Positions 5,498-26,816 of a stretch of 64,000 bases of DNA are shown here, piece by piece. The position numbers and the translations under genes were made by a program. The notes under the pieces are model-generated. The model was not told where the DNA came from. It made no database searches and saw only the letters and a list, made by a program, of their open reading frames with translations. Each line of letters starts with the position of its first letter. Positions within the stretch are counted from its first letter, which is position 1. Where the stretch lies: NCBI GenBank assembly GCA_947625095.1, contig CANQMX010000007.1:1-64000 (forward strand). Direction: 5' to 3'. The DNA comes from an uncultured Clostridia bacterium (GTDB lineage Bacteria > Bacillota > Clostridia > Christensenellales > Borkfalkiaceae).

Positions 5498-5524
5498 AAT
5501 CTTCACTCCTCTTTGATAACTCAT

Positions 5525-8377: not shown

Positions 8378-11172
8378 TTCTTACCTGCCTTTTTCTCTTT
8401 ATGCTCGCGCACGATCTCGTGCGGCCATTTGAATTTGAATTTTCTGACGGCGATGTCGAGAAGGAAGAACGCCATCGCAAGGCCGATAAACAGCCACCGC
8501 GGGTCGAATACCCTCCCGAGCGACGTTATAAATGTGGAGAAGATTTGCCAAAATTCGTCCGCTTTAACGGCGTTGCCGTTTCCGCGCTGCGCAATTTCCG
8601 CCATCAACTTTTCGGGCGCGTCGTCCTGCGCCGCCGAATAGTTGAATTCTTGGGAATAGGAAAACGCCTTGTAGATCTCCACCGTCTCCAACACCGTGCC
8701 GTCCGCGGCGCACAGATCGACGGAGATTTTATATATGCCACTCTTTTTGATGACGAAATTGGCGCGCGAATAATTGTTCTCCGCCCCGAGCGTTGTCGTC
8801 ACATAGACGTCGCCGTCCTGCGTTTCGGGAAGGGCGTTGAGGGAGTAGGAGATTTCGCCGTCATCCGACTGCATGATGATCTTTCCGTCGATATATTCCC
8901 CGTCCTCCAGAGACGCGTAGACGCTCAAACGGTTCATGTAGTTATCTTCCTTCAAGTCGAGGCGCACGCTGCTGGGGCGGATATTCTCCACCGGCATCAG
9001 GTTGGCGACCACGTTCTGCAAAAAACGCTTCCCGCTATCGCTTGCCATGAAATCGGCGGACCAATCGCTGTAGACGTCGCACATGAAACTGCCGACCATG
9101 CCTTCGCCGAACTTTTTTTGCGCATAAATGGGTACCTCGTACTCGCCGACGAGCACGATCTCGGCGCCCGAACGTGCCTTTACGCCGAAGAACCCGCCGA
9201 GAGTCGTATCAATGACATATCTGTTTTCGAGGTCTGTACCGTGCCCGACGCCGCTCAAAAGCGGAGAGAGCGCGTCGTAAATACTGGGATTGAATTCGCC
9301 GTACGTTACCTCTTTGATCGCGGGGGCGTTGACGTCGGCGCGCATCTCTTCGAGAAGCTGGTTGCCTTGCGCGAGGTGCAACCTGCCGTTGCCGTGGTCC
9401 TCATCCACGAGAACCCTCATCGTGTTTGCGGCGGCGCCTGAACCCTCCGAGATCCCGATCCCGACGACGGAAATCGTGATCCCGTGGTTTTTATTCGCGT
9501 TTGCCGCGCTCCCGAGATAAACTGCTGCATCCTCTGTGGGCTGACCATCCGTGACGAGGATGATGTGCCGCTTATCCACATTTTGCAAATTCGCGAGCCG
9601 CTGCGTCGCGCGGTCGATCGCCGTGGAAAAGACAGTGGTCTGCCCCTTTCCGATGCCGAGGATCTTTTCACGAATGAGCGCGTCCTGCGTGCACGGCGTG
9701 AGATCGAGTACCATACCGTACTCCGTATCCATCGTCATGATGCCGATATAGTCACGCTCGGTGAGCGCATTGAGACATTCGAGTGCGCCCTGCTTCGCCC
9801 ATTCCAAATTGCTCCTTCCCTGCGCGCCCGGAGTCGACATACTGCCGGAAATATCGATGACGACCATCACGCCCACGGGCGGCGTATAGTCGATCGCCTG
9901 CACGGGCAGTATCTGCTGATACAGTGAATTGTTCATGTCCGAGCGGTTATAGGCGTGTGCGGTCTCGCCGTCCGCCTCCATGCCGCCCGTCGTAAAGACG
10001 CCGCCGCCGTAGGTGTTGACATAGTCATACAGCATGACGTCAAGCCCCTTCTCTTCGAGGTCGCGGCTTGCGATATTGTTGAGAATGACCTGGTCGTATG
10101 CCCGCAGCCCATCCACATCGGTGGGAATATTTGTCGAAGTTTTGAGGTTTACGACGTCGATCTCATAGTTCACCTCATCCTCTTCCAAAAGTTGGACGAG
10201 ACGCTCCGACTCATCCGCCTGTTCGAGAATGAGCAACCTGTTGTGGACTTGAAGCCAACGGTACGCATAGTACTCGTTGTTGATCTGCAACTTCTCGTTT
10301 TGGTAACGCACGCGAGCGAACAGTTCATGCAGGCCCTGTTCGCGGAATGCATAGTTGAACCGCACCGTCTGCGTCCCGACCGACACTCCAACGGTCCGCG
10401 AACTGTCTTCTCCCACCGGCGAACCGTTATCGAACAGTTCGATCTCCGCCTCCTCGATGTTTTCGCGACTCTCGATGATCACGTCGATGGGACAGATCTC
10501 CCCAGTCCTGACGTTACGGTCGGGAAGTTCGATCCCGGTGATCTGCACGACTTCATCGGAATAATCGCTCGGGAAATACACCGTATCCACGGTGATGCCC
10601 TGCGCGGCGATGGAACGGATGACGGAGATCGCGTCCTCATCCGTCTGTTTGCCGTCGGAGACGAGCACGATCTTTCCCGTTTCGGGATGCTCAAACAGCC
10701 CGTGCGCATACTGCAGGGCGGCGGCGATATCCGTCGCGCTCGTATCGGGCAGATCCGATTGCAAAAACAGATCGTATGCTTTAACCGCATCATACATAAA
10801 CGGAGACGCGGTCTCCTGTGTGAAGCCGAACGTCACGACGGCGGCGCGACAACTTTCGTACTCGCTCTCCCGCAAAACGGATCTTACGAAGTCCTCTTTT
10901 TCCTCCCTGTTCTCCTCCGTCGTATCCGATACATCCACCAAAAGGACGAGCTCGTTCTCGGAATTCCCCACATCGTAGTGGAAGGTCATTCCGGAGAGCG
11001 CAAAGATGCACAGCACCATGACGAGCGAGTGCAGGATGACGGAGACGACGCGGTTTCTGTTCTTTCTGAACTTCTTGTTGAGGCGAAGATACAAAAATAC
11101 CGTGAGCGCCGCAGCGGGGATCAGAAGAAGCAACAGCCAAGGATAGGTAAATTGGATGGAAAAATTACGCAT
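8374..11172 (-). CDS. Membrane protein with two vWA-type regions (Bat-like, 932 aa)
   Basis: The N-terminus (YPWLLLLLIPAAALTVFLYLRL) and a second helix near residues 40-65 form the paired N-terminal membrane segments typical of BatA/BatB-like proteins. A first vWA-like strand ELVLLVDVSDT lies near residue 75. A region near 350-410 (DQVILNNIASRD, YGGGVFTTGG) resembles the glutamine amidotransferase-like fold common in this family. A second vWA domain begins near 440 with a canonical MIDAS motif, VIDISGSMS, followed by a conserved TDGQP. A C-terminal hydrophobic helix (WLFIGLAMAFFLLDIAV) gives a third anchor and a basic tail. Such proteins act with MoxR ATPases and DUF58 proteins in assembling or activating partner complexes. 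The partner here is not shown by the sequence. The gene starts 5 bp after the BatA-like gene and overlaps the LRR gene downstream. Confidence 0.85.
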   Translation of the reverse strand: MRNFSIQFTYPWLLLLLIPAAALTVFLYLRLNKKFRKNRNRVVSVILHSLVMVLCIFALSGMTFHYDVGNSENELVLLVDVSDTTEENREEKEDFVRSVLRESEYESCRAAVVTFGFTQETASPFMYDAVKAYDLFLQSDLPDTSATDIAAALQYAHGLFEHPETGKIVLVSDGKQTDEDAISVIRSIAAQGITVDTVYFPSDYSDEVVQITGIELPDRNVRTGEICPIDVIIESRENIEEAEIELFDNGSPVGEDSSRTVGVSVGTQTVRFNYAFREQGLHELFARVRYQNEKLQINNEYYAYRWLQVHNRLLILEQADESERLVQLLEEDEVNYEIDVVNLKTSTNIPTDVDGLRAYDQVILNNIASRDLEEKGLDVMLYDYVNTYGGGVFTTGGMEADGETAHAYNRSDMNNSLYQQILPVQAIDYTPPVGVMVVIDISGSMSTPGAQGRSNLEWAKQGALECLNALTERDYIGIMTMDTEYGMVLDLTPCTQDALIREKILGIGKGQTTVFSTAIDRATQRLANLQNVDKRHIILVTDGQPTEDAAVYLGSAANANKNHGITISVVGIGISEGSGAAANTMRVLVDEDHGNGRLHLAQGNQLLEEMRADVNAPAIKEVTYGEFNPSIYDALSPLLSGVGHGTDLENRYVIDTTLGGFFGVKARSGAEIVLVGEYEVPIYAQKKFGEGMVGSFMCDVYSDWSADFMASDSGKRFLQNVVANLMPVENIRPSSVRLDLKEDNYMNRLSVYASLEDGEYIDGKIIMQSDDGEISYSLNALPETQDGDVYVTTTLGAENNYSRANFVIKKSGIYKISVDLCAADGTVLETVEIYKAFSYSQEFNYSAAQDDAPEKLMAEIAQRGNGNAVKADEFWQIFSTFITSLGRVFDPRWLFIGLAMAFFLLDIAVRKFKFKWPHEIVREHKEKKAGKK

Positions 11173-11177
11173 GAGCT

Positions 11178-13127
11178 CTACCTACCCTCCCTTGAATGTA
11201 AGATCCACTCCAAGAAGAGCAATGCCACGAGCGCGGCGGCAAGGTAAATGAGCAGATCGTCGTAAGAGAAACCGCTGTAATTTTCCTTGTAGGGATCTTC
11301 CAGCGTATCCTCCACCGCCCACAGGTTGCTTTCCGCTCTCGGCGCACGCACAAAAATGCTGACGTTGACGGGGTCTTTGTCGGTAAAATACAGTTCCTGC
11401 CGCAAGATATATGTGCCCGGGATGGAAAATTTCAGCGTCGCGGGGAACTCCTCGACGGGATCGGCGGTATCCGAATAGGTGACCCGCGGACCCCGCGCGT
11501 TAAGCACAACATCCTCGTTTACTTCAAACGCGGTGCCGTTGACCGTCGTGGGCAGGAAATAGTTAAATATATTGTAGAGCAAGATGATCCATTCGGGCTG
11601 CAGCGCGATATTGGAATAGTGCACGCTGAACGGAAGAACGGCAATCTTGATATTTTTTTGGTTTTCGACGAGAAGAAGGGGATCGGAGCCGATCGTGAGC
11701 AATGCCTCATAATCGGACTCGAAATCAAACACGGTATAGCGGCTGACCTGGATGTATTCGGGTACGAGATATTGCGTCACGGAGTGCGCCGTCATCCCGT
11801 CGCACGGAATCAATGAACCGTTCGCCGTCGCCTTTATGGTGCGAAGCCGCAATCCCGTTCCTGCGGGCGCGCGGTCGGGGTCGGCAAGCAATACCGCTCC
11901 GTCCAGCGGAAGCACATCGGGCGCGGTGTGCTCATACACATAGAAATCGTACCCGCTCTGCGGGAATTCCTGCCCCTTGGGAACTTCATCCACCTGCAAC
12001 TGCCAACGATTGGCAAAAAGCGCCTTCAACGAGTCGAGCGCGCTTGTAAAGAAGGGGTTTGGATCGGTACTCGCATAGAGCACTTTGATAAGCTCCTTCT
12101 GTCCGTCATAGAGGGAAAAATTATTGTCCGTACGGAAATAATCGTCCTCATCCACGGACACACGGATGGATCGATAGGAATAAAACCTATCGGAAGTCCC
12201 GAGATCGTAATATATGATATTTTCGGTGTCCGCGCCGCCACCGTCGCAAAAGACGACCGTCTTTACCGCATCTCCGTCGCAATAGACGCTTTGAGAAACC
12301 GAAATCGAACGCCCGCTCGCAGTGGAATCCTGCGCGTCTGCGCCTGATATGTTGAGCTGCACTTCCAATTCCCTATTGTTCCCGTAATTTGCCACCTCAA
12401 CCGTTATGACATAAAAGCCATCCACCAGTTCCGAAGTAGCGGAGAGCACGGCGGCGTTCCACTCGCCCGTTTCGGCGACGGAGACGACCGTCACATTTTC
12501 GGGAATATAGCTGTATTGGACGTCGGTGTAAAGATAGATCTTTGCCGAGGGATTCACCGCAAGCACATCCTCCGACAGTGTCAGAGCGGCGTTGATATCA
12601 CTCGATCCGTACGAGCACGTTACCTCTCCGTTTTCAAGGGCGTCAAACTCATCATAGAGGATCCGACTGTTTTCCTGCTTGACGCGCTGTGCCAAAAATG
12701 TGGGCGATGCGTCCGCCAATATGACCGAAGCGTTGCCGCCCTTTTGTATGGTCTCCTCGGAGAGCTTTCTCGCCCCCTCCACGGCGCGGTCGAAGCGGGT
12801 CTCGTTTTCCGTGCCCGCATACATACTCGCGGATGAATCGATGATCGCGATCGTATCGAGTTCGCCCGTATCGTTGCTGTGCACGATGGCGGGTTGCGCG
12901 AGAATGAGCGCCATGGCGATCAAAATGAGGAGTTGACAGATAAACAGAATAATGTTCCGCACCCTACTGGTCGGAAGCCGTTTCTTTCTGTATTTCAAGC
13001 TCAATTTCCAGACGTATGTCGTGGAAACGTGCTTTGTCTGATAATTGGGCTTGATCACGTAGATGAGAATGAGCGCCAAAACGCCCAAAAGCCCCAATAA
13101 GCCCAAAGGTAAAAGCAATGACATCAT
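11178..13127 (-). CDS. BatA-like vWA membrane protein (649 aa)
   Basis: The N-terminus has the BatA_N pattern: a first helix (LLLPLGLLGLLGVLALILIYVI), a basic loop, then a second helix (NIILFICQLLILIAMALILAQP). A vWA domain with a MIDAS-type motif AIIDSSASM follows near residue 95. The middle carries beta-sandwich-like sequence, and a C-terminal helix (DLLIYLAAALVALLFLEWIL) ends close to the stop. The start overlaps the DUF58 stop codon (ATGA at 13124-13127). A second in-frame ATG follows immediately and could also be used. In MoxR operons elsewhere, BatA-like proteins are membrane partners of MoxR and DUF58. The role here is inferred from order and architecture. Confidence 0.85.
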   Translation of the reverse strand: MMSLLLPLGLLGLLGVLALILIYVIKPNYQTKHVSTTYVWKLSLKYRKKRLPTSRVRNIILFICQLLILIAMALILAQPAIVHSNDTGELDTIAIIDSSASMYAGTENETRFDRAVEGARKLSEETIQKGGNASVILADASPTFLAQRVKQENSRILYDEFDALENGEVTCSYGSSDINAALTLSEDVLAVNPSAKIYLYTDVQYSYIPENVTVVSVAETGEWNAAVLSATSELVDGFYVITVEVANYGNNRELEVQLNISGADAQDSTASGRSISVSQSVYCDGDAVKTVVFCDGGGADTENIIYYDLGTSDRFYSYRSIRVSVDEDDYFRTDNNFSLYDGQKELIKVLYASTDPNPFFTSALDSLKALFANRWQLQVDEVPKGQEFPQSGYDFYVYEHTAPDVLPLDGAVLLADPDRAPAGTGLRLRTIKATANGSLIPCDGMTAHSVTQYLVPEYIQVSRYTVFDFESDYEALLTIGSDPLLLVENQKNIKIAVLPFSVHYSNIALQPEWIILLYNIFNYFLPTTVNGTAFEVNEDVVLNARGPRVTYSDTADPVEEFPATLKFSIPGTYILRQELYFTDKDPVNVSIFVRAPRAESNLWAVEDTLEDPYKENYSGFSYDDLLIYLAAALVALLFLEWILHSREGR

Positions 13128-14023
13128 GACATGATCCCAGATTTCAGAAGCTCCCCGAAGAGTACGCGCTCGATGGGAGTCTCCGAAGAGACGGAAATAT
13201 AGCCCGCGCCGCGCTTGGCGGTATAGGAGCGTATATCTTCGCGCAAGTCGCGCAGCGCTTCCTGATACGCCTGTTGCATTGCGGGATTGATTCTCAAACG
13301 CATATTCCTCGGATCTTCAAGATCCTCGGCTTCAGCATCCACGAGGAACACCCTGCCGTCGTAGGACGGTTCGATCTCCTCCGGCGAGAGAACTTGCACA
13401 AGCAGAACCTGCCTCTTTTTATAGCACAAAAAGTCGACCGCTTTCTTCCAATCGCTTTCGGTGAGAAAATCGGATACGATAACGGTGAGACCGTTGTTGT
13501 TTCCCGTTTCACGACATCCCGTGACGCACGCTTCGAGATCGGTGCTTCCCTCGAATTCGAGCTCGCGGATAGAACTCATCGCGCGAAAGAACGCGTTTTT
13601 CCCCACGAGCGTGCCGAACGGGTTGTCCGAAACATTGCCGCGCATGAGATGGAACGTCAACTTGTCCATATTCTGGACAGCCAAAAAGCCGAGCGCAGCC
13701 GCGGCGCCTATGGCGTAAGCGCCTTTTTGCTCGTCGTTCTTCCCGACCGAAGCGGATAGATCCAAAAATACCTGCACCTGCATCTGCCTTTCGTCCGTAA
13801 ACAGGCGCAGGAAATATTTTTCGAATCGGCTAAACAAATTCCAGTCGATGCGGCGGATATCGTCTCCGAGTTGGTATTCGCGGAAATCGGCAAATTCAAC
13901 GGTCTGTCCGTACGTCTTCACCAGATGTTTCCCGCCGAAATACCCCGCGAGATTGGATCTTAAATTTAACGACAGCGTCTCCAAACGACTGAAAAACGCG
14001 TCATCGAGTTGCGTTACCTTCAT
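13124..14023 (-). CDS. DUF58 domain protein of a MoxR operon (299 aa)
   Basis: This is the typical DUF58 layout: the signature block near residues 45-70 (FREYQLGDDIRRIDW, followed by a short Phe/Arg-rich segment) and then a degenerate vWA-like fold beginning VFLDLSASV. The length matches the family. The function of DUF58 proteins is not firmly established; they almost always accompany MoxR AAA+ ATPases and vWA proteins. It lies 16 bp after moxR and overlaps the BatA-like gene by 4 nt. The Shine-Dalgarno sequence is weak, suggesting coupling to the gene upstream. Confidence 0.9.
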   Translation of the reverse strand: MKVTQLDDAFFSRLETLSLNLRSNLAGYFGGKHLVKTYGQTVEFADFREYQLGDDIRRIDWNLFSRFEKYFLRLFTDERQMQVQVFLDLSASVGKNDEQKGAYAIGAAAALGFLAVQNMDKLTFHLMRGNVSDNPFGTLVGKNAFFRAMSSIRELEFEGSTDLEACVTGCRETGNNNGLTVIVSDFLTESDWKKAVDFLCYKKRQVLLVQVLSPEEIEPSYDGRVFLVDAEAEDLEDPRNMRLRINPAMQQAYQEALRDLREDIRSYTAKRGAGYISVSSETPIERVLFGELLKSGIMS

Positions 14024-14039: not shown

Positions 14040-15212
14040 TTATTTTCTGCCGAACAAGCCGCGCTTCTTCTTTTTTTCTGCGTCCTCGGCGGTCTCCGCC
14101 CCCTCCTGCTCCGCGGGCGCTGCGGCCTCCGCGGGCTTTGCGCTCTCCGCGGGCTTTGCGGGCGCTTCCGCGCCCTTCTTTTCCTCCGCGGGGGAGACAA
14201 GCGGTTTGCCCGTCACGGGGCGTTTGTGGTACTTTTTCTCCACCTCGTCGAGGATCATGGTGATGACGTCGTCTGCAGTGATGCGCTCCGCGACCGCTTC
14301 GAAGTTGAGCTTCAAACGGTGGCGGAACACGGGATAGGCCATCTCGAACAAATCGTAGTAGGAGACATTATACCTGCCTTTGATGAGGGCGAGCACCTTC
14401 GCCGCCGAGACGATCGCCTGTCCCGCACGCGGGCTTGCGCCGACGCGGATATACTTCTTTGCCGCCTCCGTCGCGCACTCGCCGTCGGGTCTTGTCGCCG
14501 CGACGAGCACCATCGCATATTTCAGCACGTCCTCCGCGATGGGGATCTGGTTGGCGGTCTTGCGCATAGCGAGCAGCTGTTCGCCCGTGCACGCCCGTTC
14601 CGCCACTTCGTCCATCGTCTTTTGCGTGAGGCTGACGATCTGCATGAGTTCATCCAGCGAGGGATCTGGCACGAGCAGTTTGAACATAAAGCGGTCCATC
14701 TGCGCTTCGGGCAGAGGATATGTGCCGTCCTGTTCGATGGGGTTCTGCGTGGCGAGCACGAAGAACGGCTCGTTGAGTTTGCGCGAAACGCCCATGACTG
14801 TTACCGTGTGCTCCTGCATAGCTTCGAGGAGCGCCGACTGCGTCTTGGGGGTGGCGCGGTTGATCTCATCGGCGAGGATGATGTTGCTGAAAATAGGCCC
14901 GGGCTGGAAGTTGAACTGCGAGTTGCCCTTTTCATCCTTGACGATGATATTGGTGCCCGTCACGTCCGCGGGCATGAGGTCGGGGGTGAACTGAATACGC
15001 GAGAAGGGCAGATCGAACACTCTTCCGAGCGTTCTGACGAGCCTCGTCTTGCCGACGCCGGGCACGCCCTCGAGGAGCACGTTGCCGCCGGCGATCATGG
15101 CAATGACCGTGCCCCGCACGACCTTTTCCTGTCCGATGACGTCGCGCGAGATCTGTTTGAAGATCTGCGTGCAGATTTCGCTGAATTGCTTGATGTCTTG
15201 TTCTGTTACCAT
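14040..15212 (-). CDS. MoxR-family AAA+ ATPase (390 aa)
   Basis: Walker A GVPGVGKTRL lies near residue 55 and Walker B/sensor IILADEINRA near residue 115, followed by the MoxR-typical block TQSALLEAMQE and the sensor-1 region VLATQNPIEQDGTYPLPEAQ. The family core (about 320 aa) is followed by a ~65-aa Ala/Pro/Glu/Lys-rich tail ending KKKKRGLFGRK, longer than usual and probably disordered. MoxR proteins are chaperone-like ATPases working with vWA proteins to mature or insert cofactors into complexes. The gene is preceded by a 33-bp gap with an AG-rich Shine-Dalgarno-like stretch. Confidence 0.93.
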   Translation of the reverse strand: MVTEQDIKQFSEICTQIFKQISRDVIGQEKVVRGTVIAMIAGGNVLLEGVPGVGKTRLVRTLGRVFDLPFSRIQFTPDLMPADVTGTNIIVKDEKGNSQFNFQPGPIFSNIILADEINRATPKTQSALLEAMQEHTVTVMGVSRKLNEPFFVLATQNPIEQDGTYPLPEAQMDRFMFKLLVPDPSLDELMQIVSLTQKTMDEVAERACTGEQLLAMRKTANQIPIAEDVLKYAMVLVAATRPDGECATEAAKKYIRVGASPRAGQAIVSAAKVLALIKGRYNVSYYDLFEMAYPVFRHRLKLNFEAVAERITADDVITMILDEVEKKYHKRPVTGKPLVSPAEEKKGAEAPAKPAESAKPAEAAAPAEQEGAETAEDAEKKKKRGLFGRK

Positions 15213-15245: not shown

Positions 15246-16346
15246 TTAATTGCCGCCGCCGCTCTCGCCGCCTTCCGAGCCGCCCTTCCCGATGGAATCG
15301 AGGTAGCCAGAAACGCCGCCCTGCAGGTCTCCTGGAATATTGCTCCCGTCGCCGAGGCGTCCCATCGCGTCGTCGTAGGCGTCGCCGTACTGATCGCCGT
15401 AATAGGTCTGCCCGTCATTGACCTGCTGGTTGCTATTGTCGTGGGCGTCGCCGCTACCGTTTGCGGGGTTAGTCGGGCGTTGTGGGTCTTGGGGCGGCGC
15501 ATCTTCGGAGTCGACTGGGAGTGAATTGTCGCTATCGCCGCCGTCTCCGTCTTGGCCGTCGTCCAGCAAATCGCCGAGTGCGTCGACTTCCGCAAACGTA
15601 GCGCGCACGCGGATATTTTTCGCCACGCCTTCATCTTGGCGAACGGGATCGTACAGGCCGTCCGACCAGCCCGTAAACACATAGCCCTCGTCGGGCACGG
15701 CGATCACGGCGGGAGCGTTCTCCCCCTTGGTTACGGAAATGCTCTCCTTTACCTCGTCGCCGATGCCCTCCTCCGTCAAAAAGTAAATTTTACCGCCCTT
15801 CTTTTCAACGGTATAACCGCAGGAGAACTCCCGTTCCTCTTCAAGGGAGGCGGCATACGCAACGCCGCTGGGAATGACGCCCGCCACATAGAGGGAATCG
15901 ACGGTGAGCGCGCCCACGCCGAGGATGGCGGAGGCGCCTACGGCAACGCACAGCGCGACCGAGGCGGCCACCTTGATGAGGGTATGGTCGGCGGTTCTCA
16001 GTGCCTTTTCGGTGTCCTCGCGCTGCAATTTTGCGAGGTAGGAAGTATCCCCCTCGAGTTCCATCATCGTGATGAGGCGCTCTTCGAGGCCGATCGCGTC
16101 GATCTCGCGCGCCACTTCCCTTGCGGAGGGGCGGTATTTGAGGAAATAGAAGAGGAGGGCGCTTCCCGCAAACGAGACGGCAAACAGCCCGAGCGCGAGC
16201 CAAATACCCGCGCGGAAGCCTGCGATCCACGAGGCGAGCGCAGTCACAAGGAGCACGCCGCAGGCGATGATGAGCGCGGCGAGCGCCGATTTCAAGATAG
16301 CTCCGCGGACGATCCTCCGCTGAAATCTTTTCATGCTGTCCTTCAT
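15246..16346 (-). CDS. Membrane protein of the MoxR cluster with repeat-like domain and acidic tail (366 aa)
   Basis: Not recognised as a named family. Two membrane helices lie near residues 18-38 and 42-68, and a third hydrophobic segment near 125-150. After it comes a domain containing GYVFTGWSDGLYDP, which resembles the core of InlB/Listeria-Bacteroides repeats also present in the flanking lipoproteins. The last ~110 residues are Asp/Gly/Asn/Gln-rich and low in hydrophobics (for example GQDGDGGDSDN) and end SEGGESGGGN, probably a disordered tail. A good AAGGAGG lies ~7 nt before the start. Its position directly upstream of moxR suggests a membrane scaffold for the same system, but that is inference. 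Confidence 0.7.
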   Translation of the reverse strand: MKDSMKRFQRRIVRGAILKSALAALIIACGVLLVTALASWIAGFRAGIWLALGLFAVSFAGSALLFYFLKYRPSAREVAREIDAIGLEERLITMMELEGDTSYLAKLQREDTEKALRTADHTLIKVAASVALCVAVGASAILGVGALTVDSLYVAGVIPSGVAYAASLEEEREFSCGYTVEKKGGKIYFLTEEGIGDEVKESISVTKGENAPAVIAVPDEGYVFTGWSDGLYDPVRQDEGVAKNIRVRATFAEVDALGDLLDDGQDGDGGDSDNSLPVDSEDAPPQDPQRPTNPANGSGDAHDNSNQQVNDGQTYYGDQYGDAYDDAMGRLGDGSNIPGDLQGGVSGYLDSIGKGGSEGGESGGGN

Positions 16347-16397: not shown

Positions 16398-16430
16398 CCT
16401 CAGCGGTATTTCCGAAGAAAACCGCTGAGG
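16398..16430 (-). terminator. Hairpin between the giant LRR gene and the MoxR cluster
   Basis: Ten-bp stem CCTCAGCGGT/ACCGCTGAGG with a 13-nt loop, in the 132-bp gap after the 3,216-aa gene. No U-tract follows on the minus strand and no convincing promoter was seen after it. It may attenuate or process the transcript rather than end it. Confidence 0.35.
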
Positions 16431-16478
16431 TCTTGCTGCGTTTGTTCAATTTATTTCGCAAGTTTGCGAAAATTTGCC

Positions 16479-19400
16479 CTAATCCTTTACGATATCGCTA
16501 TACCCGGGGAAGTCCGTCGCGCCCGAAGCCTTCAATGCTTGTGCGTACGTTGCATCGAAGGAAACGCCGCTCAAATCCATTGCCCCATCGCTGGTTCCTT
16601 GGATCCACGCCAAACCGCGGGTCGCAAATGTCTCATATTTGGATGCACCGAAATAGATGTGGTTCGTTTCCGTCGGATACCACCACTTCCCTGCCGAAAA
16701 GCTCACCCATGTACGAGGGACGAAAACATGGATATTGGGCGTATTTGCATTGAAGAGAGAATATACCTGTGTGCTGACTCTTTCGGGCAGATTCACGAAT
16801 TTCAGCGATGCACAATTCTGGAACGCGTAAGAGCCGATGGTCGCTACATTTTCGCCGAGTTTGACCCATTCGAGCGCGGGATCGTTCGTGCACATGGAGG
16901 CAGGAGTCTCCGTTAAACTGTCAGGGAGCGTAAGATTTTTGAGATTTGCGCAATCCGCGAATGCGCCGCCGTTATTGCCACCGCGAATTGTAGTGAGCCC
17001 GCTCGGAAGTGTGATCGTCGTTATTCCCGTTCCGTTGAATGCTCCGCCGCCGATCGTTGTGATTTGATCGGGAAGTTTGTTTTCCGTCTCCTTGCCATCT
17101 GCCGCAACCGCAACGACTTTGGTGAGGCTCGCAAGACCCTTGAACCATGCGTCACCGATCACGGTTATGTGCGTTCCGAACTTGACCGTAGCAAGGGCCG
17201 CGTCGTTCTGGAACATATTAGTTATGGATGCCTCCTCAAAGGTCGTATCGATGGTCGCCTCCGTGAGTACGGGCATATCGCCGAATGCGCTTGCTTCGAG
17301 CGTCGTTACGGTCGAGGGGATCGAGATCGAGGTGATGCCTGTATTCTTGAACGCACCGCCCCTGACGGTCGTAACGCTCGCGGGGATGGTGAACGAGGTG
17401 AGTCCCGTGCAATCCAGGAACCAGTTGGCGCCGATCTTAGTAAATTCCGCGGGGAAAGTAACCTTGGTGAGCGCACTGTTCTTTTGGAATAGATACGAAA
17501 CACTACCCGCCGCGGTATTGAGCGCTTCCGCGCTGCCTTGGAATTCGATCTCCTTGATTGCGCTTTCGGCAAAGGCGTAGTTCAAGAATGTTTCGATCCC
17601 ATTGGGAACGATGAGTTTGTTCATCGCGGTATTCTTGAAGGCGTACTGACCGATCTTCGTGATCTTGGAAGGGATCGTGAACGTACCGATCGTACGAGCC
17701 TGCAATTCCGCAAGCACTTCATCGGTGAGTTCCGTAACGTCGTCTGCGAGCGCAAACGTCGTGGAGCCGGTGGGATAGGCGACCAATACCTTCGTATCTG
17801 CATCCTTCTTATAGAGTTCTCCGTGCGTTCCCACCGCAAAATTCGTATTTTGATCGTCCACGGTAAACGCCGTCAACGAATCGCACAAATGGAACGCGCC
17901 TTTATTGACCGTGGTGATCGCCTTACCGATCTTGAACGTTGTAAAGTCGGTATTGCGGAACGAATACTGGCCAATGGTTGTCACCGCGTTTTCATTCATC
18001 GTGATGGAGGAAAGGCTCGTGCAACCGTCAAAGGCATAGTTCGGGATCGACGTGATGCTGTTATTGAGCGTGACCGATGTGATCTCTGTGCAATTTTGCA
18101 GAACGTATGTTCCGATCGAGGTCATTGTGCTCAGGTCGATGCTCTGCAACGCGCTGCACCCTGCGAATGCATAATTGCCGAGTTGCGTGATGTTTGCCGG
18201 AAGCGTAACGGTTTTCAGATTCTCACAATCCTGGAAGAAGTTGTTGCCCAGCTTGACGAGGTTTACATTCGTCATCTTGGAGAGATCCATCGTGGTGACC
18301 GCCGTTCCCTTGAACAGACTCGTGCCGAGCGTCTTGAGATCGGAAAGCGTTGCGGGCCAAGTAATGGTATCGAGCATCGTGCAGCCGCTGAACGCACTGT
18401 TGCCGATCTCGGTAAGCCCCGTTGCTTGAACCGTCACGCTCTTGAGCGCCGTGCAAGCCTGGAACATACTTTTGGGGATCTTGGTCACGTCGCTCGCGAT
18501 CGTCACCGAACCGAGCGAAAGCGAACCCTGGAATGTGTTGTCCCCCCATGTAATGCCTCCGTTAACCGTGATTTGTGTAAATCCGGTGTTCTGGAATGCA
18601 TTGCTTCCGGTCTTCGATACTTTGGAGAAGTCGAACGAGGCGAGGCCCGTGCAATCCTGGAAGGAACTTGCACCCACTGTAATTTGATCCGCTTGGATCG
18701 TCACCGAGGTAAGATTCGCGGCGCCTTTGAATGCACTGTCGTTGATCGTCGTATACGTCGCGGGAAGCGTGATCGATGTAAGTCCAGAGCCCGAAAACGC
18801 TTCTTTGCCGATACCGGTGAGCGTTCCGTTGCTTCCGGTCGTGGCAAACGTGGCGGGAAGTATGACCTCCGTCAATGTGGTGACATTTTGGAATGAGTGA
18901 CCGCTGATCGACTTGACCTTCGTCTTGGAGAGATCGACCCTCGTCAATTTCGTTCCGCGGAAAGTAAAATCATCGCTATCTTTCCACGTGGAGCTCTGCT
19001 TGTACTTCAAAAACTCACGGCCAATATAAACCAACGTAGTAGGGAATGTCACTTCTTCAAGGTTGGAACAGCCGTCGAATGCGCTCGTCCCCAGCCCTTC
19101 TACGCCCTCTGGAATATCGAAGCGTCTGAGCGCCGTGCATCCCGCAAACGCACTGCTGCCGATCTTTGTCACATTTTCGGGGATATCGATCTCCGTAAGC
19201 GAAATACAATCCTTAAACATGCTGCTGCCGATCTCGGTGAGGCTGCTCGGCAAGATCACCGTTTCAAGTGCGGAGCAACCCGAGAAATAGCTGCTGCCCA
19301 ACGTCTTGATCGTGGTCGCTTTCGACATATCCACATATTCCAACTTCGTGTTGTTTGCAAATACGTTACCCTGCGACGAACTCGCCGTAAATTTTGCCGC

Positions 19401-22400
19401 GGGGAACACGACGCGCGTGAGCTGCGTATTGTTGAACGCACTCGCATTGATATTGGTCAGGTTGACCAATTCTTCGAGGTTGATCGTTTCAAGACCGGAA
19501 TCCTTGAACGTTGTTGCCTGTATCTGCTTCAAGGCGACGGGCAACTTCACTTCTTTGAGTTGTGCACAGCCCATAAAGATACCGGCATTCCCCGTAGCCT
19601 TCCCGGGAAGGGACGTGATTTGCGTCTTGCTCAAATCGACTTTTGTTATCGCCGTATTCCTGAACGCCGACATACCGATCGTTTTCAACGACGCAGGGAA
19701 CAGAACGGAATACTGGTCGTTCGCGTCAGCCTCTGGATTGATCATCTCTGTGCCGAGCAGGTTGGCATTCTCGAATGCGCCCTCGCCGATGCCGTTAAGT
19801 GCGGTGCCCGCAGCGTTGCTGCCGAGCATGACACACTTGCTGAGGTCAAGCGTTTTGAGGCCGGATGCATAGAACGCCTCCGTTCCGATGTAGCTGAGGT
19901 TGACTGCAGCCGAGAATTCGAAGTCATCCAGCGCCCAGCAGTTCTTGAATGCGGTACTGTCGATAAGGCTGAGTGAACTTACGCTTCCCGAGCCGATCAT
20001 AAAGCTTACTTTTTGCAAGCTCACGCAGTTTTCAAACGCACCCGCGCCGATCTTGATGAGCGAGGCGGGAAGTACGACTTCCTCAATGTCCACCTGCCCT
20101 TTATATGTGCCCTCAGCAATTTCAAGGGTACCGTCGTCGATGACGATCCGGCCTTCCACAACGCCATACGCATAGATCAAGGTATCCTTTTCGCCTTCGG
20201 CGTTGAGTCCATAGATTGCGTGCGCATCTGCGTCGATCGAATAGTAAGTTTCATCATCGGCCGTAACGGTTTCAAGCCCCGTGACTCCCGCAAAAAGTCC
20301 CGTAACGCTCTGAACCGACGCCGAAAGGTGCATCGTCGCAAGGTCGACGCATCCCGAGAATACGCCGGACGCTACGATAATCTCTTGGACCTCGCCGTTT
20401 TCATCGGTAACGGTCGGGAATGTGAACGAGGTAAGCCCCGTGCTCTTGAATGCCGAAGTTTCGATTTCGGCGAGTTTGCTGCCCGTTTCAAAGTTCACCT
20501 CGGTGAGTTGCGTAAGGTTTTGGAAAGCGCCGTCCTTGATGATTTCCACCGATTTTGGGATCGTGATGGATGTGAGCGCAGCCGCACCGTTAAATACGCC
20601 CGTCGATGCATCGCTGGTCTTGCCCTCCTCACCGATCGTTTTGAGCTTCATATTCTTGCCGAAGACGACGTTCTTCAACGCAGAGGCGTTGGTCACAAAG
20701 CCCTTCGGCAAGCTCTCCAATTCGCAGTTGTCCGCAAAAGCGATGGTTTCGAGTTTCGTGCAACCGCTGAACAGATAGTGGTTGCTATCATTGTGCTCCG
20801 CGAATTCCTTGAAGGTGGAGGGGATCCCGATCGTCTTGAGCGCCGTGTTGGTAAATGCGCATACGCCGATGGTCGTAATGCCTTCCGGCAGGAATTGTAC
20901 CGGCGTATCTTTTCCGTCGATCGATACATTCTGCACGGTACCGATCGTAGCGAGGTTCGTGCAACCGTAGAAGGCGTGCCAACCGATCACAAATCCATCG
21001 GGTACCTCCTCTGGCAGATTTACAGTCTTCAAATTGGTGAAGTCTTGGAAGAGACCGACATAGGCGCCACTGCCTCCCGTCGACACGCTCGGCCACTGGA
21101 AGGTGGAAGGAAGCGTTACGGTTTCAAGTGCAGTATCCAATGTAAGTGTATTTCCGTACATCTCGACGCTCGGGCGCTCGGGCAAAGTGAGCGTGGTAAG
21201 CCCCTGCATCCCGGAGAGCGCACTCTGCGCAAACTTCAATTCAACTCCCGTTGCGTCTTGCGGCGTCGCCTCGAACGTCAATCCCGTCGTAATCTTATCA
21301 CAATTATAGAATGCCATCTTGGCGATGGATGTAACAGTATAGGGAATATTGATGGTCGTAAGTTCGTCGCAATTGTTGAAGGCATTTTCCCCGATCGTCG
21401 TAAGTCCGTCGGGCAAACTGACGGTCTGCAACTTTGAACTGCCGTTGCTGTTGCCGTTGAATGCATATTCTTCGATGACCAGCGTCCCGTCGATCTTCTC
21501 GCCCGACTCATCGTAAGCGACGACCTTATCGGCAAATTGAACTGTCTGGATTCCTTCGTTGTAGTGCATCGCCCTCGAAGCGACGCGCGAAACGGTTTCG
21601 GGAATATTGAGCGTTCCTTCCGTCCCCGTGCAAGCGATGGGAACGGCAAGCAACGTTACGGCATATACTTCGCCCTTCGCATTTTTCTGCGCGGCATACA
21701 ACGCGCCTTCCACCGATTTGAAATATTCGCTCCCGTCGGCAACGGTGATCGTCGTCAAATCCGTGCACCCTAAGAACGTTTCCGCGCCGATTATCGTCAT
21801 GCTCGCGGGGATCTTGACCGTCTGAAGAGCAGTGCAAGCTTGGAGCACGCTCTCGCCCAACGTCTGCACACCTTCCTCAAAGGTGATTGTTGTGAGTCCG
21901 GCCGAATTGAATGCATCGTCCCCCACTTCCCTAACTTTGCTGGGCACGGTTATCGCTTTCAACGAAGTGCAGGAAGCAAACGCATGAGCACCGATGGAAA
22001 CTGTCTCCGCAGGAAGTGTGATGTCGGAAAGGTTGCCGCACTCATGGAATGCATATTTCCCGATATTCAATTCGCTGCGCGTTCCTGTCGTAAATTCCAC
22101 CTTTGTAAGCGACGACAGGCTTTGGAATGCGTAATCGCCGATTGTCGTAACACTTGCGGGAATTTTGATTGAGTTCACTCCCTTACCCTTGAATACTACA
22201 GGGCCGATTTCCGTGACGCCTTCGGGAACAACGAAATTAACACTGGCCTTGCCGCTTTCCACATAAAGGAGTTTCGTCTTGGCTGCATTATAGATGCCGC
22301 CGTAACCGGGCGTCTCCTCGCCCTCCACGCGCACATAATTTTTATTGCCATCGATATTGATGCTCTTCAACGAATCAACCGTGGGTTTATTACCGGTCGT

Positions 22401-25400
22401 CCCCAGAACAGCAAATACGGAAGCAATGTCGATGACCGGGAAATCCGCACCGATGATAAGATCGGCCGCTACCGTGGCAAATACGCCGGTGGGAGCATAC
22501 TCAACAGACATATTGGGGCGTCCGTTCAGCGTGATTTTCGTTAAAGACGAAATATAGAAAGCTCTCCGAGCGGCTTTTACAACATTGGCGGGAACGCTCA
22601 ACGTTGTGACTTGTGTACCGGAAAACGCCTCTTCATCGATGGTAAGGTCGTTGGAGTCTTTGGTCGCATCAAAGGTAAGTTCTGTAACCCCGCTGCACCC
22701 GTAAAACGCCTGCTTGCCGATGTACGTGATCCCCACAGGAATCGTGATCGACGTAAGGCTTGTCACGTTCTTAAACGCCGCTTCGCCGATGGAGGTGATA
22801 CCATCGGGAATGTCATATTGGGTAGCGGTCCTTGCTTTGGGATAGTAAATAATCTCCTGCGTCGACGTTGTCGTGTCTTTGATCGTCCTGCAAAGCACGC
22901 CGTTCACCGAGAAGATATCATCCCCCGCTTTGGAATCCAAAATGTTGATGTCGGTAATCGCGTCGCAACCCTCCAATTTTGCAATGGAGAATCCCACTGT
23001 GTACTTGGGCACTGAAAGTGTTGTAAGTTTTGCAAGCGTATGGAATGCCTTATCCGCAATCGTAAGTGTCGCATCTTCTGCGCTGGCCGTAAAGATGATC
23101 GACTCCAATGCTTTCGCTTCGCGTATCGCTTCCGTTTGCAATTCATACACAGATGCGGGGATCGTCAACTTTGTAATCGTAGTATTTTTGTAAATCGCAC
23201 CCGTACGAATAGACGTAATATTATCGGGAAGAGTTACTTCCGTGCTCCCTGCGCTTGTCTTGTATGCCAACGGCACATAGATAAGCCTATTCGTTTCTTT
23301 CTCGTACACCATACCATCCTTTGAGGCATACTTGGGGACATTATTGTTGGGCACTTGAATGATATTCACCGCTTTCAATTTGGTAAGGCTTTCAAAAGCT
23401 TTACCAACTGAACCGAGCGAAATATCTTTCACGGTATCGGGAATATTGATGACTTCAAGCGATGTACCCGCGTTGAAATCTTCCACCGTGATGACCGTCT
23501 TCCCATTGTGCGTGGCGGGAATGGTGATCTCCTTCACTGCTCCGATCGAGGACCCCGCGGAGATAGACAACCCGCCTTCCACCTCCGTATACACAAACGG
23601 CGTCGTCCACTTCGCATAGACCGTGAGGTCTTTGAGAAGCGTATATGTACCCGTGTTGCCGCCGCTGAGGTCCGCAAACTGCGCGCCCGTGCCGCCTACG
23701 CCGCGGTACCAGCCTTGGAAGGTATACTCCACCGAGGTGGGCGTGGGAACGGGAAGCGTGAAGTTCGACTGACGGTAAGATACGGTAAACGTATCCTCGT
23801 CGCATTTGCCCTCCGGCCCGGTAACCAACGTGATGGTAAAGGTCTTGGGGGTAAACTTCGCGTAAAGGGTAAGCGCCCCGCCCGCAAAGGTGGTTTCTTC
23901 GTATTTATTTGTTCCGTTGTAGCCATCACGATACCAGCCGTCGAAGTCGTAGCCGACCCACTCGGGCTGAGGAAGTTCGATGGGGTCGCCCTCCGCGAGA
24001 TATATGCTGGGAACGTCGTCGATCTCCGCCGTATTGATGCCAAAGTCGATCGTGTCGACCGTAACATCGATGTGCGCCCAATCAAAGCCGCCGCCGTTCT
24101 TCAGCGCGCGCACATAAATAGTTTGCGTGCCGCCCGCGGTAAACGTAATCTCTGCTTCTTGATCTGTAATAGTGTGGATAACGCCATCTTCACCGATTTT
24201 CCATTGATAGCCATCCGCACCGAGGATAGCGTTCCAAGTCGCCTTGCCTGCGTGATAGGTAAGACCGCTGACAACGCCTACGTTTGTTACGGTAAGTGTA
24301 TCCGAAACATACGATTTTTCGGCTTCTACGGCGCTTACAGCATACAGGGTGACTTCTGCCGACCCCTCGCTGCCGAGATCCTCTTCTTCTATCGTATAGG
24401 TTGTTGTGTTCTCGCCCGTAACGGGAACCATTTTGTCGCCAATGTGCAATTCATAACCCGTAGCTCCCGTCACCGAATCCCACTTGAGCGTAATGCCGTC
24501 CATATGCACGTTTTGCGGCGCGGCAAGCGTCTGCTTCGTATAGGTATATTCCGCCGCTTCGGGGGAATTCCACCCGAATGCACGGGGAACAACGCTTATG
24601 GTGAGTTCGCCCTTGCCGAAACGCGTGATGGAATAGTTGCACACGGCGACGTCCTCATCCTCAACAACAGGCGTCCCGTCCAGCGTGACGCTCACGCGGT
24701 AAGCGGTGGCGTGCTCCACCTCGGGCCACGAGATAGTGCCCATCGCGCTGTCGAGTTCGATTTGCGAATTTTCTATTTTCTTAAGAATATAGTTATAAGA
24801 GTCGGTTTGCGAAACGCTCGTGACATAGCCATCTGCAAGAGCCTTTACGGTAAACGTAATGCCCTCTGCGCGCATATCGCACCCCGAGAAATCGTAGGAG
24901 ATGTATTTATTTGCGCTGGTATCGTTGAGGATCACGTCGTCAACGTGTTCGTGTCCCGCCGAGCCGCACTCATAGGAGATGGCGTAGCTCGTCGCGTTTG
25001 CAACTTTGTTGAAGAGGAGGATCCTGTTCGTCGCGTCATCGACTTTGAACACCGAAACGCGCGCGAGCGCCTTGTTATTGAAATAGCGGGTCGTAGTCTT
25101 GTTGTTGACGTCGACTTCAATCTTGTATTCCCCCTCGGCGGCCGTCGCGAAGTTGAAACTCGTATCGACGGTCGCAGCGCCCGTGGTGAGCGTGCCCGTA
25201 TGTGTGACTTGGGTTGCGGGAGCGGGCGGCGTAATGCGCAGGTCATAGGTAAGGTTCGTCCCCTCCGCGTTGATTTTTACGCCTTCCGCGGAGACGGAAA
25301 CCTCGGGCGTGCCGTCCGCCCAAACGGCAAACAGCGTCAAGTTCTGCGTGATCTCCAAATCTTCCGTATATTCATATGTAAGTTTCTCCCTATTTTCGAA

Positions 25401-26129
25401 GTCGCTCACATACCACCCGAGGAATTCTTTGCCCTCGGGGTGCACGGGAGTATCCAGCGTGCCGGCGTAGATCCTGTGGTTGACGGTCGTTGCGGCCGCG
25501 GGAGCGACGGCATTCTCGTATCCGAGGTCGAAGGACACCGTAAATTCGGGGTCGGCGACCTCAACAAAGCGCGCGTAGAGCGTCTTGTTCCCCGTAATGG
25601 GCTGCGAGAAGTAGAACGGGTTTTTGAAGGTGGTATTATCGTTGTACCAGCCGACAAAGACCAGCTCGCCCTTGGTGGGCGCGACGGCGGGCTTTGCCAC
25701 CGTTCTGCCGTTGCGGACGGTCACGGCGTCGATCGTCGTTCCGCCGTTCGTATCGAACGTCACGGTGTAATCGATCTTTCTCAAGAAGGTGTAGGTGACG
25801 TTGGAATAGGTCAGCGTGACTCTGTCGTTCTTATAGGTCGCGGAAATCGCGCCCGCATTTTCGGGCGTGAGCGTCAACGCGTCATTTTCAAGTGCGTAGT
25901 CACCCTTCAACTCGGTCGTGCCCATCGTAAGTTTGAAGGTGCACACCTCGCCGTCGCCGAGCGTGAGGGAATACTCTGCGTCTTGGTAGTCGCAGTAATA
26001 TTCGCCCGCTTCCGCTCCGGGCTCCTTGTTGTTGCCTCTTTTCGTCCAGCTACCGCACGCGGCGAGCACGCCGAGCGTGGTGACAACGGAAAAGAGCAAT
26101 CCGAGTACCAATAAAAATTTACGCTTCAT
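16479..26129 (-). CDS. Giant BspA-like LRR lipoprotein (3,216 aa)
   Basis: Signal peptide MKRKFLLVLGLLFSVV... with lipobox VLAAC, lipidated Cys near residue 25. Residues ~130-280 hold two InlB-type repeats (ELVFVGWYND, KEFLGWYVSD). A stretch of fibronectin-like or carbohydrate-binding-like modules follows to ~700 (ATAYRVSVTLDG, VTGATGYELHIG), then two more InlB-type repeats (YDFDGWYRDG, YTFQGWYRGV). From ~850 to the C-terminus there are scores of LRR_5/BspA units (IGxxAFxxCxxLxxITxP). No C-terminal anchor or sorting motif is evident, so the lipid anchor is the likely attachment. The start at 26129 is preferred over 26141 because GGATGGTGA sits just upstream and the signal peptide begins there. 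A phase-variable-looking promoter lies upstream. Likely an adhesin or host/matrix-binding protein; ligand unknown. Confidence 0.88.
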   Translation of the reverse strand: MKRKFLLVLGLLFSVVTTLGVLAACGSWTKRGNNKEPGAEAGEYYCDYQDAEYSLTLGDGEVCTFKLTMGTTELKGDYALENDALTLTPENAGAISATYKNDRVTLTYSNVTYTFLRKIDYTVTFDTNGGTTIDAVTVRNGRTVAKPAVAPTKGELVFVGWYNDNTTFKNPFYFSQPITGNKTLYARFVEVADPEFTVSFDLGYENAVAPAAATTVNHRIYAGTLDTPVHPEGKEFLGWYVSDFENREKLTYEYTEDLEITQNLTLFAVWADGTPEVSVSAEGVKINAEGTNLTYDLRITPPAPATQVTHTGTLTTGAATVDTSFNFATAAEGEYKIEVDVNNKTTTRYFNNKALARVSVFKVDDATNRILLFNKVANATSYAISYECGSAGHEHVDDVILNDTSANKYISYDFSGCDMRAEGITFTVKALADGYVTSVSQTDSYNYILKKIENSQIELDSAMGTISWPEVEHATAYRVSVTLDGTPVVEDEDVAVCNYSITRFGKGELTISVVPRAFGWNSPEAAEYTYTKQTLAAPQNVHMDGITLKWDSVTGATGYELHIGDKMVPVTGENTTTYTIEEEDLGSEGSAEVTLYAVSAVEAEKSYVSDTLTVTNVGVVSGLTYHAGKATWNAILGADGYQWKIGEDGVIHTITDQEAEITFTAGGTQTIYVRALKNGGGFDWAHIDVTVDTIDFGINTAEIDDVPSIYLAEGDPIELPQPEWVGYDFDGWYRDGYNGTNKYEETTFAGGALTLYAKFTPKTFTITLVTGPEGKCDEDTFTVSYRQSNFTLPVPTPTSVEYTFQGWYRGVGGTGAQFADLSGGNTGTYTLLKDLTVYAKWTTPFVYTEVEGGLSISAGSSIGAVKEITIPATHNGKTVITVEDFNAGTSLEVINIPDTVKDISLGSVGKAFESLTKLKAVNIIQVPNNNVPKYASKDGMVYEKETNRLIYVPLAYKTSAGSTEVTLPDNITSIRTGAIYKNTTITKLTIPASVYELQTEAIREAKALESIIFTASAEDATLTIADKAFHTLAKLTTLSVPKYTVGFSIAKLEGCDAITDINILDSKAGDDIFSVNGVLCRTIKDTTTSTQEIIYYPKARTATQYDIPDGITSIGEAAFKNVTSLTSITIPVGITYIGKQAFYGCSGVTELTFDATKDSNDLTIDEEAFSGTQVTTLSVPANVVKAARRAFYISSLTKITLNGRPNMSVEYAPTGVFATVAADLIIGADFPVIDIASVFAVLGTTGNKPTVDSLKSINIDGNKNYVRVEGEETPGYGGIYNAAKTKLLYVESGKASVNFVVPEGVTEIGPVVFKGKGVNSIKIPASVTTIGDYAFQSLSSLTKVEFTTGTRSELNIGKYAFHECGNLSDITLPAETVSIGAHAFASCTSLKAITVPSKVREVGDDAFNSAGLTTITFEEGVQTLGESVLQACTALQTVKIPASMTIIGAETFLGCTDLTTITVADGSEYFKSVEGALYAAQKNAKGEVYAVTLLAVPIACTGTEGTLNIPETVSRVASRAMHYNEGIQTVQFADKVVAYDESGEKIDGTLVIEEYAFNGNSNGSSKLQTVSLPDGLTTIGENAFNNCDELTTINIPYTVTSIAKMAFYNCDKITTGLTFEATPQDATGVELKFAQSALSGMQGLTTLTLPERPSVEMYGNTLTLDTALETVTLPSTFQWPSVSTGGSGAYVGLFQDFTNLKTVNLPEEVPDGFVIGWHAFYGCTNLATIGTVQNVSIDGKDTPVQFLPEGITTIGVCAFTNTALKTIGIPSTFKEFAEHNDSNHYLFSGCTKLETIAFADNCELESLPKGFVTNASALKNVVFGKNMKLKTIGEEGKTSDASTGVFNGAAALTSITIPKSVEIIKDGAFQNLTQLTEVNFETGSKLAEIETSAFKSTGLTSFTFPTVTDENGEVQEIIVASGVFSGCVDLATMHLSASVQSVTGLFAGVTGLETVTADDETYYSIDADAHAIYGLNAEGEKDTLIYAYGVVEGRIVIDDGTLEIAEGTYKGQVDIEEVVLPASLIKIGAGAFENCVSLQKVSFMIGSGSVSSLSLIDSTAFKNCWALDDFEFSAAVNLSYIGTEAFYASGLKTLDLSKCVMLGSNAAGTALNGIGEGAFENANLLGTEMINPEADANDQYSVLFPASLKTIGMSAFRNTAITKVDLSKTQITSLPGKATGNAGIFMGCAQLKEVKLPVALKQIQATTFKDSGLETINLEELVNLTNINASAFNNTQLTRVVFPAAKFTASSSQGNVFANNTKLEYVDMSKATTIKTLGSSYFSGCSALETVILPSSLTEIGSSMFKDCISLTEIDIPENVTKIGSSAFAGCTALRRFDIPEGVEGLGTSAFDGCSNLEEVTFPTTLVYIGREFLKYKQSSTWKDSDDFTFRGTKLTRVDLSKTKVKSISGHSFQNVTTLTEVILPATFATTGSNGTLTGIGKEAFSGSGLTSITLPATYTTINDSAFKGAANLTSVTIQADQITVGASSFQDCTGLASFDFSKVSKTGSNAFQNTGFTQITVNGGITWGDNTFQGSLSLGSVTIASDVTKIPKSMFQACTALKSVTVQATGLTEIGNSAFSGCTMLDTITWPATLSDLKTLGTSLFKGTAVTTMDLSKMTNVNLVKLGNNFFQDCENLKTVTLPANITQLGNYAFAGCSALQSIDLSTMTSIGTYVLQNCTEITSVTLNNSITSIPNYAFDGCTSLSSITMNENAVTTIGQYSFRNTDFTTFKIGKAITTVNKGAFHLCDSLTAFTVDDQNTNFAVGTHGELYKKDADTKVLVAYPTGSTTFALADDVTELTDEVLAELQARTIGTFTIPSKITKIGQYAFKNTAMNKLIVPNGIETFLNYAFAESAIKEIEFQGSAEALNTAAGSVSYLFQKNSALTKVTFPAEFTKIGANWFLDCTGLTSFTIPASVTTVRGGAFKNTGITSISIPSTVTTLEASAFGDMPVLTEATIDTTFEEASITNMFQNDAALATVKFGTHITVIGDAWFKGLASLTKVVAVAADGKETENKLPDQITTIGGGAFNGTGITTITLPSGLTTIRGGNNGGAFADCANLKNLTLPDSLTETPASMCTNDPALEWVKLGENVATIGSYAFQNCASLKFVNLPERVSTQVYSLFNANTPNIHVFVPRTWVSFSAGKWWYPTETNHIYFGASKYETFATRGLAWIQGTSDGAMDLSGVSFDATYAQALKASGATDFPGYSDIVKD

Positions 26130-26164
26130 AAATTTCACCATCCGTTATGAAGAAATTTGTTACC

Positions 26165-26195
26165 ATTATAACACCGCTACCCCCCCCCACGTCAA
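26165..26195 (-). promoter_or_regulatory. Promoter with poly-G spacer for the giant LRR lipoprotein unit
   Basis: On the minus strand, -35 TTGACG (26190-26195) and -10 TATAAT (26165-26170) are separated by 19 nt, and nine consecutive G residues (26180-26188) fall in the spacer. The start codon is about 35 nt downstream of the -10. A 19-nt spacer is longer than the 17-nt optimum seen in other promoters of this window, so changes in G-tract length would be expected to change promoter strength. Confidence 0.7.
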
Positions 26196-26517: not shown

Positions 26518-26588
26518 CCGCCTCTAGTTTTGTTTCCTCATACCGAGCCGCCCGCCGCGCAGAGCGTGGCGGGCGGCGAGTGTATCTT
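26518..26588 (-). repeat. 71-bp direct repeat, copy 1, containing a hairpin element
   Basis: Identical over 71 bp to 26746-26816. Read on the minus strand it contains AAGATACACTC, then a GCCGCCCGCC/GGCGGGCGGC hairpin, then TCGGTATGAGG: the type-A intergenic element of this window. Confidence 0.9.
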
Positions 26589-26745: not shown

Positions 26746-26816
26746 CCGCCTCTAGTTTTGTTTCCTCATACCGAGCCGCCCGCCGCGCAGAGCGTGGCGG
26801 GCGGCGAGTGTATCTT
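26746..26816 (-). repeat. 71-bp direct repeat, copy 2, containing a hairpin element
   Basis: Second identical copy of the 26518-26588 repeat. Between the two copies lie short CCTCATACCG fragments (around 26668-26748) that are truncated ends of the same element. Confidence 0.9.

Follow-up and report, generated by a model that had tools for sequence, protein, structure and literature searches.

A promoter with nine guanines in its spacer, located directly before the gene of a giant surface-type lipoprotein, is likely to be one of a large class of slipped-strand phase-variable promoters resembling those of porA and tp0126 and occurring at many loci. It was found in a window of 64,000 nucleotides (the whole stretch of DNA analysed) of an uncultured Clostridia bacterium, probably a gut inhabitant. 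For the class, the slipped-strand promoter switch proposed in the preliminary description is well supported by the number of loci, the floating position of the tract, the scattered spacer lengths, the differences between orthologues, and the lipoproteins encoded downstream; for the window site itself, the direct evidence for switching is neutral or slightly against.

The promoter is coded on the minus strand and consists of a -35 hexamer TTGACG (26195-26190), a G9 homopolymer (26188-26180), and a -10 hexamer TATAAT (26170-26165), all by direct reading; the -35 hexamer was also returned by a whole-genome pattern search. The spacer (26171-26189) is composed of T, G9, and TAGCGGTGT, and is 19 nt long. 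The complete promoter TTGACG-T-G9-TAGCGGTGT-TATAAT covers positions 26195-26165 of the minus strand directly 5' of the giant gene, with a pure homopolymer of at least eight nucleotides between recognizable -35 and -10 elements. The good -35, the perfect -10, and the G9 in a 19-nt spacer were thus read as they had been described, and the calculation that loss of two Gs restores 17 nt is correct, as G7 would give this length. Other promoters of the window had been credited with 17-nt spacers (one with 16 nt), and a scan of spacers of 17-21 nt returned TTGAC..TATAAT at 30563 and 50587, both with 17 nt. The window contains one run of at least seven Gs, counted as three overlapping G7 matches, versus 9.3 expected in shuffled sequences. 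The run by itself is unremarkable; what is unusual is its location between -35 and -10.

The giant lipoprotein ORF (26141..16479, minus strand) codes for 3,220 aa from the ATG at 26141, which lies 23 nt 3' of the -10, or for 3,216 aa from the ATG at 26129. The size of 3,216 aa given in the preliminary description matches the second ATG, and the lipoprotein and LRR character was confirmed: a signal peptide ending in the lipobox LAAC was read from the translation, and Listeria-Bacteroides repeats together with 17 stretches of BspA-type LRR_5 were identified. The target of the window promoter is accordingly a surface-type protein. Seven further minus-strand ORFs follow down to position 332, with small gaps or none. 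These code for a protein of 366 aa with InlB-type repeat (15246..16346), a MoxR-type AAA ATPase of 390 aa (14040..15212), a DUF58 protein of 299 aa (13124..14023), a BatA/VWA protein of 649 aa (11178..13127), a VWA protein of 932 aa (8374..11172), a second LRR_5 protein of 950 aa (5525..8377), and a protein of 1,730 aa with Listeria-Bacteroides repeat (332..5524), with which the contiguous unit on this strand ends. No terminator-like site was found in the stretch 16200-16700, which covers the gap between the first two genes, and the sole weak promoter-like site there (16295-16267) lies within the gene of the 366-aa protein. Read-through from the G9 promoter into the 26-kb unit, with all eight genes on one transcript, is probable. 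The Bat-type MoxR, DUF58, and VWA genes (8374-15212) are flanked by LRR surface proteins in this unit. In the interval from pheT to the giant gene, a sequence of some 69 nt is present in two copies (26520-26588 and 26748-26816); it contains a GC-rich inverted repeat (CCGCCCGCCGCGC...GGCGGGCGGCG) and ends in GTGTATCTT, and GC-rich intergenic repeats of this kind carry a number of the other G runs of the genome. The closest matches of pheT are uncultured Clostridia MAGs labelled 'Lapin', presumably from rabbit gut, and Candidatus Gallimonas merdigallinarum represents the nearest named genus among the matches.

The preliminary description had considered a single site, but the main result is a wider system that extends across the genus and four families of the order. 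Similar promoters were recognized throughout the genome from which the window derives. Its G8+ runs occupy 63 rows, of which 50 are away from promoters and 13 between a -35 and a -10 as called by our own scoring; one duplicate from a contig overlap was dropped, and each of the 12 distinct sites that remain resembles a promoter whose spacer holds G9-G11, eight of them with exact TTGAC and TATAAT. Six of the 12 sites precede lipoproteins, and one each precedes a secreted protein, a membrane protein, an ABC ATPase, and a protein that is GrpE-like by a weak Pfam match. Of the two other sites, one is truncated by a contig end and one has no clear target. In the genus, the exact pattern TTGAC..G8+..TATAAT gave 203 sites in 65 of 91 genomes (contig overlaps retained; 20 sites from genome G002 alone), and the reversed pattern gave none in 151 genomes. 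In the order sample, sites were present in 67 of 396 genomes with a reversed control of zero, and 60 of the 67 positive genomes belong to four families (16 to the own family, 18 to f32, 17 to f19, and 9 to f28). The phylum sample is near background: besides the own genome, 7 of 397 genomes had one match each, versus three reversed-control matches. C8+ tracts in the spacer are less common: 14 of 101 genus genomes have them, with 19 sites in all, so that per genome G tracts outnumber them about 12-fold (203 in 91 versus 19 in 101). In G002, 18 of the 20 G-tract promoters have 15-nt spacers and some are located near contig ends; four of them were read (L214-L216), and all precede lipoproteins with similar signal peptides. 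Genome G293 of family f32 has spacer tracts of G12-G14, longer than the 8-11 at 116 sites of the genus.

Lipoprotein genes are over-represented behind G-tract promoters, with 64 of 107 versus 8 of 47 ordinary promoters from the same loci (p=6.5e-7). Promoters with no ORF passing the Shine-Dalgarno rule (9 of the 116 with a G tract, 22 of the 69 ordinary ones) were omitted from this test, the window's own giant gene among those omitted, and the lipobox and Shine-Dalgarno rules were our own working rules. Lipoproteins were found behind 3 of 11 G-tract promoters with a 17-nt spacer versus 61 of 96 with other spacings (p=0.026). This speaks against the switch reading, in which 17 nt should be the ON state, as does the fact that certain targets, such as the ABC ATPase and the GrpE-like protein, are not surface proteins. 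Two giant secreted proteins paralogous to the target of the promoter at C4:11061, one on contig C9 of the own genome (L314; tract at 50293, minus strand; frame of 3,117 aa) and one in genome G085 (L316; 2,736 aa), have a G9 that apparently lies within the coding sequence for the N-terminus, before the signal peptide, with the start codon placed by inference. This coding G9 is probably a translational switch, a counterpart of the promoter device, and its presence in paralogues supports the switch reading, as a slippage device would predict. A further candidate for a coding G-tract switch is C6:51856 of the own genome (L023), where a G9 lies 10 nt past an ATG whose frame has no stop over 500 or more codons of the stretch fetched. 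Contigs C6 (1-77) and C9 (end) share an exact overlap of 77 nt holding the G9 promoter of a lipoprotein gene; the assembly branched there, and the break resembles a k-mer branch point. It was considered as a sign of tract mixtures and rejected, as the branch is away from the tract edge.

Orthologous promoters, compared with one genome per species, differ in tract length at several loci. Promoter L194 has G8 and a 16-nt spacer and L238 has G9 and 17 nt, and the 40 nt listed past the -10 are identical; the same holds for L062 (G10/17 nt) and L242 (G9/15 nt). Three orthologous promoters, L058, L191, and L237, have G10/16, G9/14, and G9/15, respectively. The gene behind C4:11061 is preceded by G9/15, G8/14, and G12/18 in three species; in three more (L293-L295), no G or C run of at least seven was found upstream, and in a fourth (L297) the region is cut by the contig end. 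Before the GrpE-like gene, G9/17 and G8/16 were found in two species and two tandem G9 promoters with 20-nt spacers in a third (L287, genome G034), and the tract is absent in two others. This gene was considered as a wide housekeeping orthologue series and rejected, as no more than 5 of 101 genomes yielded it. Unchanged are the pairs L059/L187 (G9/19) and L057/L077 (G9/16), and three copies in genome G030 all have G9/15. Comparison of these assemblies demonstrates variability of tract length between species at loci other than the window site.

At the window site, no such difference was seen. In a search for this site, 11 of 101 genomes matched, over the full length only the own genome and G062; the nine others matched over 24-47 nt of a promoter or start region and were not counted as orthologues. 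The sole orthologue found (G062, locus L251) has 86% identity over 196 nt, with -35, -10, tract, and leader conserved, and its promoter is also G9/19 nt, although bases on either side of the tract are substituted. Behind it follow an ORF of 3,274 aa and ORFs of 368, 381, 299, 649, and 934 aa, which in size and order are near the 366, 390, 299, 649, and 932 aa of the window. The preliminary description had called for tract counts in related genomes at this site; related genomes differ at some other loci, and the window site is G9/19 nt in the only orthologue found.

As the differences were seen only between species, the slippery tract might be an evolutionary tuner or rheostat acting between lineages, too slow for switching within a population. 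MutS, found in the own genome and in 113 of 121 order genomes, would fit such slow change, as would tracts that are short beside those of many contingency loci. We hold this explanation to be rather unlikely. The tract lengths at 116 sites of the genus have their mode at nine (G8, 24; G9, 69; G10, 19; G11, 4), and the excess of G9 over G7 and G8 (G7 counted among the matches listed) suggests selection for mutability. Furthermore, similar pure G tracts vary within isolates: the excerpted text of PMC7864442 gives 7-11 G for Treponema pallidum tprL, and G tracts of Bifidobacterium breve also vary according to an excerpt of PMC9187656. Since MutS is present, any slippage occurs with that repair gene in place, and loss of mismatch repair as its cause was rejected on the same MutS counts. 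Genome G108, with three G-tract sites, is one of the eight without a MutS match.

Spacer length is related to the base and length of the tract. At loci gathered mainly from the genus, a 17-nt spacer was present in 112 of 142 promoters whose G runs do not exceed three, in 10 of 16 with G4-5, and in 12 of 124 with G8+, a total inflated by many loci fetched for their G8+ site; most G8+ spacers are within 14-20 nt. In a genus search not selected for G8+ (101 genomes, 51 matches listed, reversed pattern zero), 22 of 41 promoters with G6 and 3 of 10 with G7 were at 17 nt. T8+ tracts, used as a homopolymer control, kept 17 nt in 37 of 49 sites of 101 genus genomes (p=4e-17 versus G8+; two matches in the reversed control), which counters a loosening of the spacer by homopolymers in general. 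C8+ tracts were at 17 nt in 4 of 19 sites. Nine is also the length of 17 of the 19 C tracts, and T runs drop from 42 (T8) to 7 (T9).

Within the G8+ class, spacers of 15, 16, 17, 18, and 19 nt were counted 25, 19, 12, 19, and 28 times in the genus, with 13 of 116 outside this range, and 11, 26, 5, 18, and 13 times among the matches listed outside the genus, where 29 of 102 were outside the range and identical strings recurring within one genome were entered once. With both sets pooled (outside the genus, the matches listed), 17 nt is the rarest of these lengths, with 17 of 176 sites; the dip has p=1.6e-4 versus a uniform spread, in a post hoc test with sites that include paralogues and so are incompletely independent. 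That 17 nt is the optimum may be concluded from its frequency in ordinary promoters and from other bacteria. One reading of the dip is that assemblies catch most G-tract promoters off the optimum; selection against over-strong expression, or another optimum for the G-tract class, would be other readings. The tract floats in register, 0-12 nt from TTGAC and 0-11 nt from TATAAT. A change in length would carry the spacer through the optimum, because the tract needed for 17 nt is of 5-12 nucleotides over the 116 sites (7-11 in 104 of them) and is G7 at the window.

These figures also bear on the possibility that the tract serves as a fixed regulatory element, such as a regulator site or a stiff, A-form-like spacer, whose length is not meant to vary. 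Both species with the window promoter keep G9/19 nt in spite of the nearby substitutions, and many paralogues of one genome share a length, as in G030 (G9/15 nt) and G002 (18 of 20 at 15 nt). Nevertheless, an element of this kind is improbable: the tract has no constant distance to the -35 or the -10, C tracts occur in the same place, several orthologues have tracts of unequal length, and the 17-nt peak is kept with T and lost with G or C. A protein-binding site at fixed register was considered too and is countered by the floating tract.

The giant gene could instead be driven by another, ordinary promoter, with the G9 site as a decayed remnant whose 19-nt spacer is poor. The preliminary description had seen only one promoter here, which is true of strong sites; on the same strand, two weak candidates matching 9 of 12 positions (26501-26472 and 26381-26354) lie about 210-330 nt upstream of the giant gene, and a third is inside it. 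The scan covered spacers of 16-18 nt only, so the G9 promoter could not appear in its list. The three weak sites are close to chance level, with 1.5 expected in the 3.5-kb stretch, while G062 has retained both hexamers, the tract, and the leader, and the strong intact hexamers speak against decay, so that a remnant appears quite improbable. Chance runs in a GC-rich genome or false poly-G from sequencing are scarcely credible, since, even though G runs of at least seven are not over-represented in the window and most of the genome's G8+ rows lie away from promoters, the reversed control was zero in sets of 151, 396, and 101 genomes, randomly oriented runs would give equal numbers of G and C instead of the scarcity of C tracts observed, the matches cluster in few families, and two species share the unique sequences that flank the tract on either side.

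In a slipped-strand switch, a good -35 and a good -10 would be separated by a tract that usually has 8-12 Gs, in some cases Cs, and that gains or loses nucleotides by replication slippage, shifting the spacer through about 14-20 nt; the promoter would be strong near 17 nt and weak or silent further off, so that clone-mates would differ in the surface lipoproteins they make. At the window site, by analogy with porA and tp0126, G9/19 nt would be the weak or OFF state and G7/17 nt the ON state, with the giant LRR lipoprotein as output, probably together with the same-strand genes that follow. The benefit may lie in immune, phage, or adhesion variation. The promoter anatomy, its recurrence, the floating tract, the lost 17-nt peak, the differing tract lengths of some orthologues from different species, and the lipoprotein bias are observed; we infer that slippage takes place in a population, which state is ON, the read-through into the 26-kb unit, and this benefit. 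We give even chances to the wider idea that, in whole families of the order, a code of promoter spacing controls much of the surface lipoproteome, in which up to about 20 promoters per genome would hop stochastically around 17 nt, the assembled majority would be mostly off the optimum, and each cell would display a different surface combination. If true, surfaces would be combinatorially variable in four families of one Clostridia order, with gut relatives of the window genome among them, which would have consequences for IgA coating, susceptibility to phages, heterogeneity at the strain level, and the interpretation of MAG assemblies. The 91 genomes also provide a natural library of some 200 promoters that share their hexamers and vary in spacer length, and the switching hypothesis can be tested directly in existing metagenome reads.

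Homopolymers in the promoter also set the expression of surface proteins in Mycoplasma, where the vlp promoters have a poly-A spacer, and in Bordetella, where the fim promoters have a poly-C tract; both differ from the G-tract class in base and in lineage. To our knowledge, most described cases of transcriptional phase variation by homopolymers at multiple loci come from mucosal pathogens. In open-access full text, nothing relevant was found that connects Gallimonas/Borkfalkia or Christensenellales with phase variation, so the claim that such a switch is new for this type of organism stands uncontradicted in that literature, although the mechanism itself is of a known kind. It is the scale and place of its use that appear to be new.

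The survey of homopolymeric tracts from 2010 deals, in the part excerpted, with tracts within coding genes (PMC2831843). The closest known system is porA of Neisseria meningitidis, where a poly-G lies between -10 and -35 and expression is lost when the 17-nt spacing is reduced, as given in an excerpt of PMC7864442. The window class shares with it the G tract in the spacer and the surface-protein target; however, porA is one gene of a Gram-negative pathogen, while the present promoters occupy many loci per genome in relatives, belong to uncultured Clostridia, precede mostly lipoproteins, and are known from sequence. In Treponema pallidum, according to the same excerpt, tp0126 has a poly-G between -35 and -10 with 17 nt as the best spacing, and the tract of tprL and its tpr paralogues is located just 5' of the transcription start (PMC7864442). 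Poly-G in promoters of several surface-protein genes is common to T. pallidum and the window class, but T. pallidum is a spirochaete and its targets are outer-membrane proteins. The pilus switch of B. breve, as described in the excerpt of PMC9187656, operates by replication slippage of a G tract in a gut commensal and resembles the window class in the tract, the gut commensal, and the surface structure affected; its tract is intragenic, unlike that of the window promoter, and it is the own-genome paralogue at C9:50293 that resembles the B. breve type.
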